Positions 32,504 to 38,617 of a stretch of DNA of 51,539 nucleotides are shown in pieces (positions within the stretch are counted from its first letter, which is position 1; each line of letters starts with the position of its first letter). The position numbers and the translations under genes are program-made. Where the stretch lies: contig JAHHID010000055.1 in assembly GCA_019359015.1 (NCBI GenBank), forward strand, positions 1 to 51,539, in the 5' to 3' direction. The notes under the pieces are model-generated. The model was not told the origin of the DNA and did not search any database. It saw nothing but the letters and a program-made list of their open reading frames with translations. The stretch comes from Spirirestis rafaelensis WJT71-NPBG6 (GTDB taxonomy: Bacteria; Cyanobacteriota; Cyanobacteriia; Cyanobacteriales; Nostocaceae).

Positions 32504-32566
32504 TTAGTGCTGAGTCTTGAGTTCTGATGGGGATAGGCGATCGCGATCGCCTATCCCTATTTTTTT

Positions 32567-32684
32567 GCGATCGCGGTCTGGAGAAGATACGAAAAAAACT
32601 GCGATCGCGGTCTGGAGAAGATACGAAAAAAACTGCGATCGCGGTCTGGAGAAGATACGAAAAAAACTGCGATCGCGGTCTGGA
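32567..32684. repeat. 34-bp tandem repeats each starting with a HIP1 octamer
   Basis: Three identical 34-bp units (32567, 32601, 32635) read GCGATCGCGGTCTGGAGAAG and then ATACGAAAAAAACT. A partial fourth starts at 32669, and another HIP1 site follows at about 32701. Just before them GGCGATCGCGATCGCC at 32537-32552 is a double HIP1 palindrome. The array lies between the convergent protease and Hsp20 genes. Confidence 0.9.
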
Positions 32685-34247: not shown

Positions 34248-36131
34248 ATGTGCGGCATCGTTGGTTATATCGGCACTCAAGCAGCGACAGAAATTTTGCT
34301 CTCTGGGCTGGAAAAACTCGAGTATAGGGGTTACGATTCCGCCGGAATCGCTACTATTTGGGAAGGTGAGGTTAATTGCGTCCGCGCCAAAGGCAAACTG
34401 CATAACCTACGTTCCAAACTAGAAGCCGTCGAAGCCCCGGCACAAATTGGTATTGGTCACACTCGCTGGGCAACTCATGGTAAGCCAGAAGAGTATAATG
34501 CTCATCCGCACATGGATACAGCAATGCGGGTGGCGGTGGTGCAAAATGGCATTATTGAAAACTACCGCGAGTTACGCCAGGATCTCAAACAAAAAGGCTA
34601 CGTGTTTCGTTCCGAAACCGATACGGAAGTAATTCCCCATTTAATCGCGGAATTCTTAAAAAATCCCCCCTCTTCCCAGCTCGCACAGTGTTCCTCTCCC
34701 TTCTTCGAGGCAGTGCGTCAAGCTGTGAATAAACTCAAAGGGGCATTTGCGATCGCCTGCGTTTGTGCTGACTTTCCCGATGAACTAATCGCCATTCGAC
34801 AACAAGCACCGCTGGTGATTGGTTTTGGTCAAGGCGAATTTTTCTGCGCTTCGGATACGCCGGCGATCGTTTCTCATACCCGTGCGGTGCTAACCCTGGA
34901 AAATGGCGAAATGGCACGCCTGACACCTTTAGGGGTGGAAATATATAACTTTGCTGGTGACAGGTTGAAAAAACAACCGCGCTTACTCAACTTGAGTCCC
35001 ATGATGGTAGAAAAGCAGGGATTCAAGCACTTCATGCTCAAGGAAATCTACGAGCAACCGGGAGTAGTCAGGGCTTGTTTAGAAGCTTACTTTACAAATG
35101 ATATAAATGCGCCGATTAATTTAAGCTTACCAGCAGAATTTTACGATGATTTAGAGCAAATTCAAATCCTCGCTTGCGGTACTAGTTGGCATGCTGCTTT
35201 AATCGGTAAATATTTAATTGAACAATTGGCAGGAATTCCTACACAGGTGCAGTATGCTTCTGAGTTTCGCTATGCACCATCACCTTTAACAGCAAATACT
35301 CTCACAATTGGCGTAACTCAATCTGGCGAAACTGCTGATACACTAGCAGCTTTAGCAATGGAAAAAGAACGCCGCAGCGCTTTAGAACTTAAGTATCAAC
35401 CGCGACTGCTGGGAATTACCAATCGCCCAGAAAGCACCTTGGGTGAAATGGTATCTCAGATTATCAATATCCACGGGGGGCTAGAAATTGGCGTAGCGGC
35501 AACGAAAACTTTTATCGCCCAACTGATGGCATTTTACGCCTTAGCTTTGGATTTAGCTTATCGTCGTCAAACAATTTCTCCCGACAAATTAGAGGACATT
35601 ATTAACTCTTTGCGACAGATTCCGAAAGAAATTGAAGCAACTTTGGAAAGACAAGAAAATTTAATTGAACAGTTAGCGCACGACTTTGCGGAAACCACAG
35701 ATTTTATTTTTGTGGGTAGGGGAATTAACTTTCCCATTGCTTTAGAAGGAGCGTTGAAATTAAAAGAAGTCAGCTACATTCACGCTGAAGGCTATCCAGC
35801 CGGAGAAATGAAACATGGTCCGATCGCCTTATTAGATGCGAAAGTACCAGTAGTAGCGATCGCTATGCCTGGTAATGTTTACGAAAAGGTGCTTTCTAAC
35901 GCTCAAGAAGCAAAAGCCAGAGATTCGCGGTTAATTGGTGTGACTCCCGTCAACGATGGTGAAGCAGCGGAAATTTTTAACGACTTGCTCCCCGTCTCCA
36001 ACGTGGATGAATTACTTTCGCCAATCCTAACTGTAATTCCTTTGCAATTATTGGCTTATCATATTGCAGCGCGACGTGGTTTGGATGTCGATCAGCCCAG
36101 AAATTTAGCCAAGTCAGTAACGGTTGAGTAA
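34248..36131 (+). CDS. glmS: glutamine-fructose-6-phosphate aminotransferase (isomerizing)
   Basis: GlmS makes glucosamine-6-phosphate, the first step to peptidoglycan and lipopolysaccharide amino sugars. The 627-residue protein has the N-terminal nucleophile Cys after Met (MCGIVGYIG), EYRGYDSAGIAT, the glutaminase motif GHTRWATHGKPEEYNAHPHM, and two SIS domains (ILACGTSWHAALIGKYLIEQ, SGETADTLAAL, FVGRGINFPIALEGALKLKE, EGYPAGEMKHGP). It ends PRNLAKSVTVE, which is the conserved tail whose DNA TnsD-type proteins recognise in attTn7. The transposon-end repeats begin 9 bp after its stop codon. Confidence 0.98.
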   Translation: MCGIVGYIGTQAATEILLSGLEKLEYRGYDSAGIATIWEGEVNCVRAKGKLHNLRSKLEAVEAPAQIGIGHTRWATHGKPEEYNAHPHMDTAMRVAVVQNGIIENYRELRQDLKQKGYVFRSETDTEVIPHLIAEFLKNPPSSQLAQCSSPFFEAVRQAVNKLKGAFAIACVCADFPDELIAIRQQAPLVIGFGQGEFFCASDTPAIVSHTRAVLTLENGEMARLTPLGVEIYNFAGDRLKKQPRLLNLSPMMVEKQGFKHFMLKEIYEQPGVVRACLEAYFTNDINAPINLSLPAEFYDDLEQIQILACGTSWHAALIGKYLIEQLAGIPTQVQYASEFRYAPSPLTANTLTIGVTQSGETADTLAALAMEKERRSALELKYQPRLLGITNRPESTLGEMVSQIINIHGGLEIGVAATKTFIAQLMAFYALALDLAYRRQTISPDKLEDIINSLRQIPKEIEATLERQENLIEQLAHDFAETTDFIFVGRGINFPIALEGALKLKEVSYIHAEGYPAGEMKHGPIALLDAKVPVVAIAMPGNVYEKVLSNAQEAKARDSRLIGVTPVNDGEAAEIFNDLLPVSNVDELLSPILTVIPLQLLAYHIAARRGLDVDQPRNLAKSVTVE

Positions 36132-36220
36132 AATAATACTGTGGAGAAATAATAATGTGGAGGAATAATAAAGTTGGAAAATAAATAAAAAAGTCGTATA
36201 ACAAATAAAAAAGTTGTACA

Positions 36221-36388
36221 ATTTGTCCTGTGGGTGGATATGCAAGCATCTACAGGACCTTTTTATGTCTAGAAGCAAACGAGACTGGACAACAAGCCAA
36301 GTTTGAGCGCTACAGAAAGGAAAGTCTAGGTCACGATGCACTCTTGTCAATGCGATCGCAAGCCTCATACCTTACAACAATAGCTTAA
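36221..36388 (+). pseudogene. possible coding remnant inside the Tn7-like element
   Basis: One frame is open from 36209 to a TAA at 36386-36388. Its last 40 codons look protein-like: LEANETGQQAKFERYRKESL, then GHDALLSMRSQASYLTTIA. There is no start codon with a ribosome binding site, and the frame begins inside the transposon-end repeats. It may be the 3' end of a cargo or transposition gene left after internal deletion. I cannot assign a family. Confidence 0.3.
36225..36264 (+). terminator. probable terminator after glmS
   Basis: GTCCTGT and ACAGGAC pair around a 20-base loop that is itself partly palindromic (GATATGCAAGCATC) and are followed by CTTTTTAT. It sits inside the transposon-end array, 94 bp past the glmS stop. 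Confidence 0.5.
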
Positions 36389-37312
36389 AACCTCTGCCTA
36401 TTAAGCTTTCGTAAAATTGTACAACTTTTTTATTTGTTAATTTTAGTAATTTTAGATAAATGGTACAACTTTATTTTTTATTGCTCGTACTATTAGCGAT
36501 GAAATAATAAGGTTTTCAGATGCTAAAATTGTATGATTTTTTTATTGATATACAGAGATTTGTAGATCAATAAAACGGTTCAACAATAGATAAAACGGTT
36601 GAACAATAACCCCGGAAATAGTACGATTGGATTAATAGAGATGTGCGATCGCTTTCAAGGGTTGTTTTTTATGGTTAGGTGCTTAACAGTTTTTAATATG
36701 GAAGCTTTAGGGGCGATCGCATAATTCACTTTGACTTACTCTTTATGAGCTTCGATGCGATACTCTTTCAGAGTCACTTCGTGAACGCACAGAAGAGCAA
36801 AAGTAGATTTGCGGGTGAGGTTTGCGCCAAGACGGCGGCGATCGCAGCATTACCCATTATTTTTTGCTTGTACAGATGTGCTAATCCGCCATGCCTATCT
36901 TAAGCCCTGGCTCAAAAAGACTATTATGTAAGGCTTTGAAGCAATTTTCCAACTTTTTTATTTTAAATTTGGCTGAAAATATCAAAATGGCAAAGTTATT
37001 TTCCAACTTTTTTATTTGTTTACAGCGATCGCATAACATTGTGCCGCAGCAGAACGTCTCAACTTAATCTTGAACTTATTGAGCTATCCCAAACCTTTAT
37101 GAGTAAAGAGTTTACAGAATTGTTTAACCGTTTTATTCGATTTTTTTGCTGAAAACCAAGTCTACTACAGAGAGTGCGCTTAAATTGTTCAACCGTTTTA
37201 TTCTGTAACCCACGATAAATTAAGCATTTGAGTGGCAAAAATTGTTCAACCGAATTATTCGTCTACATGAGAAGCCCGCGCTGTACACGCAAGTGTTAGC
37301 GTTGGGAGGATG

Positions 37313-38617
37313 TCACACTATACGGTTAGGAATGCCCCTCATGTCAGATACGCTATATCTAGCTCTATTAGCTTGAATGACTTGCTCAATGATATTGGCT
37401 GCTCTTGCCACGCCACCTGAAACTTGAATTGACTGCTGAATCCTCCGTGCATTCTTTGTGTATGATTTTTCTGTCAATACTCGCTCAATTGCTAATCTTA
37501 AACTGGACATATTGAGTTTCGGTAGAGAAAGTACTTCTCCCACTCCTGTCGAGCGAATTCGAGCGCCAGTTCCAGGCTGTTCAAAAGTAATAGGAATTGC
37601 TACCAGAGGTACGCCATAGCTTAGGGAATCCAATGTTGTATTCATACCTCCATGAGTAACTGTAAGACTAGCTTTCGCCAGGATGTCCGGTTGGGGAGCA
37701 TACTCGACCACTAACGGGGAACCAGGTAGCGATCGCACTGCTTCTGCATTCATCCCACCTCCATGCGAAATTACCAATTGTACATCCAGTCCAACGCATG
37801 CAGCAGCAATACAATGAAATACTGATTGTTTAGTATTCTGCACGCTTCCTAAAGAGGCATAAATCATTGGCTGTCCGGTTAACTTCTCATATGGAAACTG
37901 AACCAATGGTGCTGAAGGATTTCGTAATGAACCCACATAATGGAGATGTGATGGCAAGTCGGGAATAGGAAACTCAAACGCTACAGGCTGTTGACTAATA
38001 TGGGCAAGTCGTGAATTGGAAGCGTAAATATGGCGGTAGTCGGGCAACTTCCACTCTTTGCGGTAATGATTAATTGCTCGTAAAATCGGTTGACAGCTGC
38101 GATCCAACAGCGAATACGCTATTTGATTGCGGATCTTTGCCCACTGTGTATTCTGGTAACTCCAAGAAGTAAAGAAAGGTGGAACATCGGCTCGGCGGTG
38201 AATTACCTGAGCGGAAGAAACACAAATAAACGGGAGGTCGAGATATTCCGCCACTGTCTCGCCAGCGGGTTCGAGTTGATCTACTAGCAAGGCTTCAATA
38301 CCTGTCGCTGCGATCGCCTTGGGTGCATCTTGGCAAACTATTTCAACCATTTGCTGGCAAAAGTCGAGGGAGTAACGTAGCGCTTCCAGAGCGCTTAACT
38401 TACCCAATTGAGCAAAGGTTTCAGCGATTGAGCCAGGTCGATAAATGGTTTGTCCAATAGGATAAAAATTTACCCCCTCTAATTGCACCTTAAATTCTAA
38501 ATCTGGGATTTGTAAAAAGGTTACCTGATGACCGCGCGATTGGAGTTCTCTAGCTAATGCAGCTAGGGGATTCAGGTGTCCGGGATAGGGAGGACAAATA
38601 ATACCAAAGTGAGTCAT
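37313..38617 (-). CDS. UGT-type glycosyltransferase (GT1, MGT/CrtX-like)
   Basis: The 434-residue protein has the GT-B N-terminal sugar-transferase start (GIICPPYPGHLNPLAALARE with the catalytic-type His after P-G) and the C-terminal donor-binding signature YAPQPDILAKASLTVTHGGM, then NTTLDSLSYGVPLVAIPITF and EQPGTGARI. The His-Gly-Gly-x-Asn and Pro-x-x-x-x-Gln parts bind the nucleotide sugar. It may glycosylate a lipid, carotenoid or other small molecule. It is the first gene beyond the transposon ends and points toward them. Confidence 0.88.
   Translation of the reverse strand: MTHFGIICPPYPGHLNPLAALARELQSRGHQVTFLQIPDLEFKVQLEGVNFYPIGQTIYRPGSIAETFAQLGKLSALEALRYSLDFCQQMVEIVCQDAPKAIAATGIEALLVDQLEPAGETVAEYLDLPFICVSSAQVIHRRADVPPFFTSWSYQNTQWAKIRNQIAYSLLDRSCQPILRAINHYRKEWKLPDYRHIYASNSRLAHISQQPVAFEFPIPDLPSHLHYVGSLRNPSAPLVQFPYEKLTGQPMIYASLGSVQNTKQSVFHCIAAACVGLDVQLVISHGGGMNAEAVRSLPGSPLVVEYAPQPDILAKASLTVTHGGMNTTLDSLSYGVPLVAIPITFEQPGTGARIRSTGVGEVLSLPKLNMSSLRLAIERVLTEKSYTKNARRIQQSIQVSGGVARAANIIEQVIQANRARYSVSDMRGIPNRIV

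Follow-up and report, generated by a model that had tools for sequence, protein, structure and literature searches.

The transposon Tn7 of E. coli inserts about 25 nt past glmS, with packed sites in its right end, spaced sites in its left end, and TGT...ACA termini. In PMC11406308, type I-B1 CRISPR-associated transposons (CASTs) are described as close relatives of Tn7 that possess a glmS-targeting TnsD and occur only in cyanobacteria. Here we analyze a 51,539-nt stretch of the cyanobacterium Spirirestis rafaelensis WJT71-NPBG6 (contig JAHHID010000055.1; hereafter the window), in which the DNA behind glmS very probably consists of stacked scars left at the glmS attachment site by Tn7-family elements, which were most likely type I-B1 CASTs. 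The locus is like Tn7 in its insertion about 25 nt past glmS, its packed right and spaced left sites and its TGT...ACA termini, and the TnsB of a related full element (genome G168) is similar to Tn7 TnsB (E 5e-112). Unlike Tn7, it has a different site sequence, the related elements carry CRISPR genes, and the window is stacked and emptied. With the type I-B1 CAST AvCAST (Tn7743; PMC11406308), the locus shares the glmS attachment site, the cyanobacterial host and a right end facing glmS, as well as related full elements with tnsA, tnsB, tnsC, tniQ, tnsD and type I-B cas genes. It differs from AvCAST in holding ends and tnsA starts only, from several elements, and the likeness is drawn from features other than the AvCAST end sequences.

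The glmS gene (34248–36131, plus strand) is a 627-aa ORF with a match in 192 of 192 family genomes, and its 3′ end forms the attachment site of Tn7-like elements. Scanning the window with a matrix built from its own repeats, we found 13 sites of 18 bp with at least 18 bits between 36164 and 37259, and none above 10.2 bits in the rest of the 51.5-kb window. The preliminary description had counted about 14 repeats; 13 stand, plus two copies of the terminus. Chance repeats are ruled out, as the simulated region (100 first-order Markov runs) yielded on average 0.34 sites of at least 8 bits, and never more than 3, versus the 13 observed. Because the matrix was trained on the same window sites, the independent test is where such sites fall in relatives; a second matrix, retrained on the relatives' sites together with the window, recovered the identical 13 sites. 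Searching the own genome (G000) for the consensus, we obtained 24 matches with up to two mismatches, 10 in the repeat stretch and 14 scattered (17 in the reversed-pattern control), and with up to one mismatch 6 of 7 matches fell in the repeat stretch. No comparable repeat cluster was found elsewhere in the own genome by this consensus search.

As had been proposed, packed arrays face glmS and spaced arrays face away. The right-type sites lie on the minus strand in 20-bp steps (36164, 36184 and 36204; 36569 and 36589), and the left-type sites are spaced along the plus strand (36417, 36461 and 36529; 36945 and 36999; 37120, 37185 and 37242). A TGT begins 8 bases ahead of each outermost right site (36156 and 36561) and an ACA closes 8 bases past each outermost left site (36554, 37024 and 37267), giving the TGT...ACA termini of the Tn7 family. 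The stop codon TAA of glmS occupies 36129–36131, and the terminus TGTGGAGG begins 24 bases later at 36156, at the TnsD site and, as previously suggested, at the Tn7 distance. The same place is used widely: in 44 of 102 loci, a right-type site starts 34–38 nt from the first base of the glmS stop. An additional TGTGGAG copy begins at 36140, 8 bases past the stop; it belongs to an extra copy of the right-end terminus (36140–36155, minus strand) that is cut after 16 bases and forms a direct repeat with the sequence from 36156 onward. Within 36131–36184, the right terminus (TGTGGAGRAATAATAA) is repeated directly over 16 bp on the glmS side of the main right end; the extra copy may have arisen by slippage, or by insertion of an element into a right end already present.

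Reading outward from glmS, the proximal right end (36156–36221, minus strand) is a mixture, with an A′-like outermost site and class A-like inner sites. It is followed by a hairpin (36225–36258) and a T-run (36260–36264), both on the plus strand directly 5′ of a tnsA start and detected by folding and compensatory changes. Next come 69 bases of a frame-broken class A tnsA (36265–36333, plus strand), at the end of which DNA similarity to full elements stops, then about 80 bases of other DNA, and then the class A left end (36417–36554, plus strand). Positions 36166–36331 match the right-end stretch of G171 at 85% identity, and the complete TnsA proteins of G171 and G039 have a start similar to this tnsA remnant. 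The class B right end (36561–36606, minus strand; terminus TGTAGATC) continues through a hairpin with a T-run (36605–36670, plus strand), which stands in the same place in full B-type elements, into the first 12 bases of tnsA (36671–36682, plus strand), where similarity to G168, G133 and others stops. Farther out lie the class A′ left end (36945–37024, plus strand) and the class B left end (37025–37267, plus strand), the latter 86% identical over 243 bp to the left end of a 31-kb element in G133 (Nostoc carneum NIES-2107). A short dispersed repeat at 36754–36790 is also present on contigs C2, C46 and C72 of the own genome and in many relatives.

In total, two right and three left ends are present in the window, along with two starts of tnsA, and the number of left ends requires at least three insertions. 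The ends enclose two remnants, of 399 bp (36156–36554) and 707 bp (36561–37267); the A′ left end, which has no clear partner, sits inside the latter, 243 bp from its end. We looked for an A′-type left end in 57 kb of G075, whose right end is the same mixture, and found none. No relative's match spans the inner junctions of the remnants, with two candidates scored per genome. Of tnsA, tnsB, tnsC, tniQ and tnsD, only the two tnsA starts remain between the ends, and the ORFs listed for 36156–37267 leave no space for cas6/8/7/5 and a CRISPR array. The claim that transposition genes are absent therefore holds for full genes, but not for the two short tnsA starts. The earlier choice between miniature elements and deletion scars came out partly on both sides, the sizes of 399 and 707 bp being miniature and the retained tnsA starts looking like deletion.

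Comparing the B-type left ends of the window (37025) and of G133, G059, G168, G155 and G190:C4, we noticed that the shared sequence starts at the HIP1-like word GCGATCGC. In these six ends, the word lies about 243 bp from the terminus, and the sequence to its left differs in each; in the window, it is the A′ left terminus that abuts the word. Cargo exchange or deletion at GCGATCGC words is possible. A class A left end also lies within the class B element of G168, about 25.8 kb past glmS, comparable to the A′ left end within the B remnant of the window. The word GCGATCGC is contained as well in a 34-bp tandem repeat of 3.5 identical copies at 32566–32684, between ORFs that by eye are serine-protease-like and small heat-shock-like.

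In relatives, the same repeats bound Tn7-like elements behind glmS, 23–34 kb long in the five measured. The proposal of stacked Tn7-like ends at the attTn7 position of glmS is thus supported, as elements bearing tns genes and the same ends occupy this place in relatives. The G168 element reads tnsA, tnsB, tnsC, tniQ, cas6, cas8, cas7, cas5, three 37-nt CRISPR repeats at 72-nt spacing, tnsD and cargo. Its TnsB has no Pfam match and matches the solved Tn7 TnsB at E 5e-112, and its Cas8 matches a solved type I-B Cas8 (8fcj) at E 7e-93. By these similarities, the set corresponds to that of a type I-B1 CAST, and the suggested link to glmS-homing type I-B CASTs is borne out by the type I-B cas genes and tnsD of this element. 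The family and PDB searches cover G168 only; for G171 and G039, the likeness is one of ORFs, which form the same series and start similarly. The tnsB of G039 is in two pieces, and that of G179 has one stop. Away from glmS, class B left ends were seen in G190:C4 (glmS on C61) and G183:C112 (glmS on C159). On G076:C4, a 6.4-kb class C element with a related TnsB and CCTAG at both sides is not behind glmS, the preceding 66 bases not encoding a glmS end. It may be a non-CRISPR Tn7-like element with related ends, so that end class alone is no proof of a CAST.

The end sites of the window have the class and the geometry of intact elements. In A-type left ends (..GTACAACTTT..), 14 of 18 rows place two sites 111–112 and 67–68 bp ahead of the last one; G159, G163, the second G172 end and the small G155 pair depart from this. 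B-type left ends (..GTTCAACCG..) have them at 121–122 and 57 bp in 6 of 8 rows (exceptions: G189, with 122 only, and G190, with 65), and C-type left ends at 143–144 and 67 bp in 2 of 2 rows, all classes being assigned by eye. The A and B left ends of the window, with offsets of 112/68 and 122/57, reproduce these class geometries. Building a TnsB tree of 18 rows, we find that the five B-type proteins form one clade (support 100/100) and that the six A-type proteins group weakly (33/52); the four end classes together need three changes on the tree, the least possible. The TnsB proteins of A and B types are 64–70% identical. Judged from these alignments, repeat class and left-end geometry appear to go with the TnsB clade, strongly for B and weakly for A, in agreement with the earlier suggestion of more than one TnsB specificity at one site.

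To survey the family, we compared the DNA behind glmS in the 102 best of 192 glmS matches, that is, 101 relatives and the window. Of the 44 loci with a right-type (minus-strand) site at 34–38 nt, 43 qualified by their first site and G168 by its second; the remaining 736,725 bases of the 102 loci contain 20 minus-strand sites. Right-end sites occur in 45 of the 102 loci: 8 with tnsA and tnsB, 5 with pieces, 27 with neither by tblastn in the surveyed stretch, and 5 at a contig end. The window is counted under neither, its tnsA starts being too short for tblastn, and loci were called full when at least 250 aa of TnsA and at least 480 aa of TnsB aligned, broken frames being allowed. Full tnsA plus tnsB is thus missing from 32 of the 40 loci that have right-end sites and can be judged, a tally that omits G182, G150, G035, G081 and G011, where the contig ends within 3.2 kb. 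The site counts are lower bounds, as G053, G057 and G058 have decayed right ends by eye and were counted as site-free. In other scar loci, the tnsA tails are of unequal length, about 19 to 175 codons.

No right-end sites were found in the three same-genus loci, G001–G003. In G002, a decayed B-type hairpin and tnsA start persist (75% over 83 bp), as does a shared piece of 90 bp; no similarity to the window stretch was found in G001 or G003. Vertical sharing with the genus was rejected, G002 alone keeping decayed traces.

The proposed search of the own genome for tnsB genes with matching ends came back empty. With the G168 TnsB as query (E <= 1e-20), no TnsB of the same family was found in the own genome (completeness 99.98%), so the remnants cannot move by themselves. 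Since the tns genes are missing as well, the stretch is a remnant and not a working member of the family. The domain PF09299, which would miss the TnsB of interest because that protein has no Pfam match, has two matches in the own genome, on C46 and C141. The set on C141 (29–5424) comprises a fused TnsA-TnsB (904 aa; 22% identity to the G168 TnsB over 313 aa), a TnsC-like ATPase, an XRE-type regulator and a TniQ-like protein, the genes other than the PF09299 match being named by eye. The set on C46 (5555–8844) has tnsB in two frames (298 and 335 aa), then TnsC-like and small TniQ-like ORFs, and by eye resembles Tn5053 or V-K type sets. In 20 kb of C46 and 10.2 kb of C141, no window-like site scored above 11.4 bits. 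A matching transposase acting in trans from the same genome was thus rejected: no TnsB of the family was found at E <= 1e-20, and the stretches of C46 and C141 gave no window-like site above 11.4 bits.

Tandem stacking, also anticipated earlier, recurs in relatives. A left terminus is followed after 4–6 bp by the next right terminus in the window genome (G000), G133, G155, G059, G163, G183 and G177, and in G122 a left terminus adjoins a right end with a decayed terminus; the control with a reversed pattern gave 1 match in the listed genomes. In the window, the A end pair (36156–36554) is followed after 6 bp by the B right end (36561), whose left counterpart closes at 37267. The clearest stack is in G155 (C20; Nostoc calcicola FACHB-3891), where a 33.9-kb B-type element has ATTGT at both sides and is followed by a 192-bp A-type end pair. 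The newcomer in such a stack thus settles next to glmS, and the older element is pushed outward. Target duplications of 5 bp were also seen in G189 (GTTTA at both sides) and G122 (GTAAT at both sides); the flanks of G133 gave a shifted match (TCTTG, CTTGT) and those of G179 no match. Among the end pairs of the window, no flanks match as a 5-bp duplication: GAGAT follows A, GCGAT follows A′, TGAGA follows B, and AATAA or AATAC precedes the first right end. The insertion history is therefore not clean, and its exact order is not recoverable from the window sequence. Of eight direct junctions, seven are heterotypic, as many as these types allow (re-pairing P = 0.07, or 0.18 with A and A′ merged), in a test that omits the junctions of G008 (second site below score) and G175 (left end a fragment). 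A preference for heterotypic stacking is not significant and is only suggestive.

We propose that each arriving element was placed by its own TnsD about 24–27 nt past the glmS stop, with its right end towards glmS, and that each newcomer would have pushed the older elements outward. At least three elements, of end classes A, A′ and B, would have arrived in this way. Deletions would then have removed tnsABC, tniQ/tnsD, cas and cargo, leaving the end pairs and the first codons of tnsA. The ancestors presumably carried cas genes, TnsB would bind the end sites, and the right-end hairpin could end glmS transcripts. The proposal builds on the observed site classes, geometry, position, similarity to full elements and lack of a matching TnsB in the assembly.

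Folding the right ends, we found that all 9 loci with full tnsA have a hairpin (−17.5 to −26.9 kcal/mol) in the interval from the last right-end site to the start of tnsA; the search required a T-rich tail, which is thus present by construction. In shuffle tests, which cover the window hairpins only, the A hairpin at 36225–36258 (−18.9 kcal/mol) reached z −4.39, and the B hairpin (−17.8 kcal/mol) z −2.02, with 9 of 200 shuffles as good, that is, modestly better than shuffles. In A-type stems, changes on both sides occur at 6 of 13 pairs in 17 sequences, a level reached by 0 of 500 shuffles, and pairing is destroyed when the partner is slid; these are 17 of the 21 A-type hairpins (without G180, G010, G162 and G149), and having been found by folding they are biased towards the structure. 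B-type stems have a different sequence in the same place. An Rfam search yielded no match, and a simple terminator scan of 36000–37400 reported none, its loop limit of 8 being shorter than the hairpin loop. The right-end hairpin nevertheless combines the stable stem, U-run and compensatory change of an intrinsic terminator.

In E. coli, Tn7 inserts into the glmS terminator. An element may bring a replacement terminator, which would favour retention of its right end; this terminator role is a prediction from sequence. The right end would then have been kept because the hairpin and T-run replaced a glmS terminator split by insertion, a reading that we consider possible and hold tentatively, and that adds to the scar reading and does not oppose it. 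Besides the compensatory changes and the presence of the hairpin in every one of the 9 loci with full tnsA, it draws on G189, where the joined flanks form a native hairpin that the insertion interrupts midway. Among the 36 loci without full tnsA and tnsB, the element hairpin is kept in 19, but it is gone from the other 17 (this tally keeps all 45 loci, and G182 counts as one of its 9 full loci). For eight of the 19 keepers (G016, G172, G180, G010, G111, G011, G191 and G022), similarity stops by eye at the T-run or the start codon; however, G172 and G180 have common DNA after the break, and their breaks may be one event. The T-rich tail as a search requirement and the empty terminator scan also weigh against this role. 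Going further, the scars might still work in two ways, the hairpin as glmS terminator and the old ends as "vaccination marks" through target immunity, which we regard as rather unlikely. The TnsB of a same-class CAST would bind the old ends and block re-insertion at glmS, and only CASTs with another TnsB specificity could dock, which would promote the split into classes A, A′, B and C; the seven heterotypic junctions of eight are no more than suggestive of this.

The remaining alternatives concern the origin of the scars. The end pairs could be non-autonomous, MITE-like units formed elsewhere and carried to glmS by TnsABC and TnsD in trans. Like MITEs, the remnants are short, with two ends and no genes; the A pair still has three sites at each end, spaced as in its class, and the 192-bp A-type pair of G155 stands right behind a full element. 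MITEs are expected in several near-identical copies moved in trans, whereas the own genome has this one copy and no second, the target duplications do not match, and no match spans the inner junctions with two candidates scored per genome. The tnsA starts appear left by deletion, and their unequal tails across loci look like the product of separate deletions, so that we find this origin quite improbable. It is unlikely, in our judgment, that the vanished elements were Tn7-like but lacked cas genes. The scars hold no cas sequence, and the class C element of G076, with its related TnsB, fits such a history, but the A- and B-type elements of G168, G171 and G039 share the tns-cas series (by family search in G168 only), and the nearest match to the B left end comes from an element of 31 kb. 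Finally, such sites stand behind glmS in many species, as ancestral or chance repeats of the locus with no tie to transposition might do. We give this reading almost no credence: the same sites bound elements with 5-bp duplications (G189, G155 and G122), which refutes ancestral glmS repeats, and they also occur away from glmS (G190:C4, G183:C112 and G076). The comparison of glmS 3′ regions called for by the preliminary description revealed full elements in relatives and same-genus loci free of right-end sites, and the repeats form no comparable cluster elsewhere in the own genome; neither result points to repeats that are widespread outside glmS or ancestral to the locus.

Tn7-like and CAST elements at glmS are of a known kind, and the window is a well-resolved new case. 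Neither such scars nor the right-end hairpin is described in the titles or abstract openings among the matches listed for the Tn7/CAST literature, a scope that leaves Hsieh and Peters 2023 outside. What may be new to a specialist is the stacking of several end classes that survive only as scars, together with the geometry specific to each class and the conservation of the right-end hairpin. Scars and full elements together form a natural set of TnsB end classes, each with its own geometry, of use in picking CASTs that do not cross-react. The scars also open two questions to experiment: is target immunity conferred by the ends by themselves, and can the end of a transposon take the place of a host terminator? 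In summary, the findings indicate that the glmS site in Nostocaceae has been hit repeatedly by Tn7-like/CAST elements, and that the residue is often a scar.
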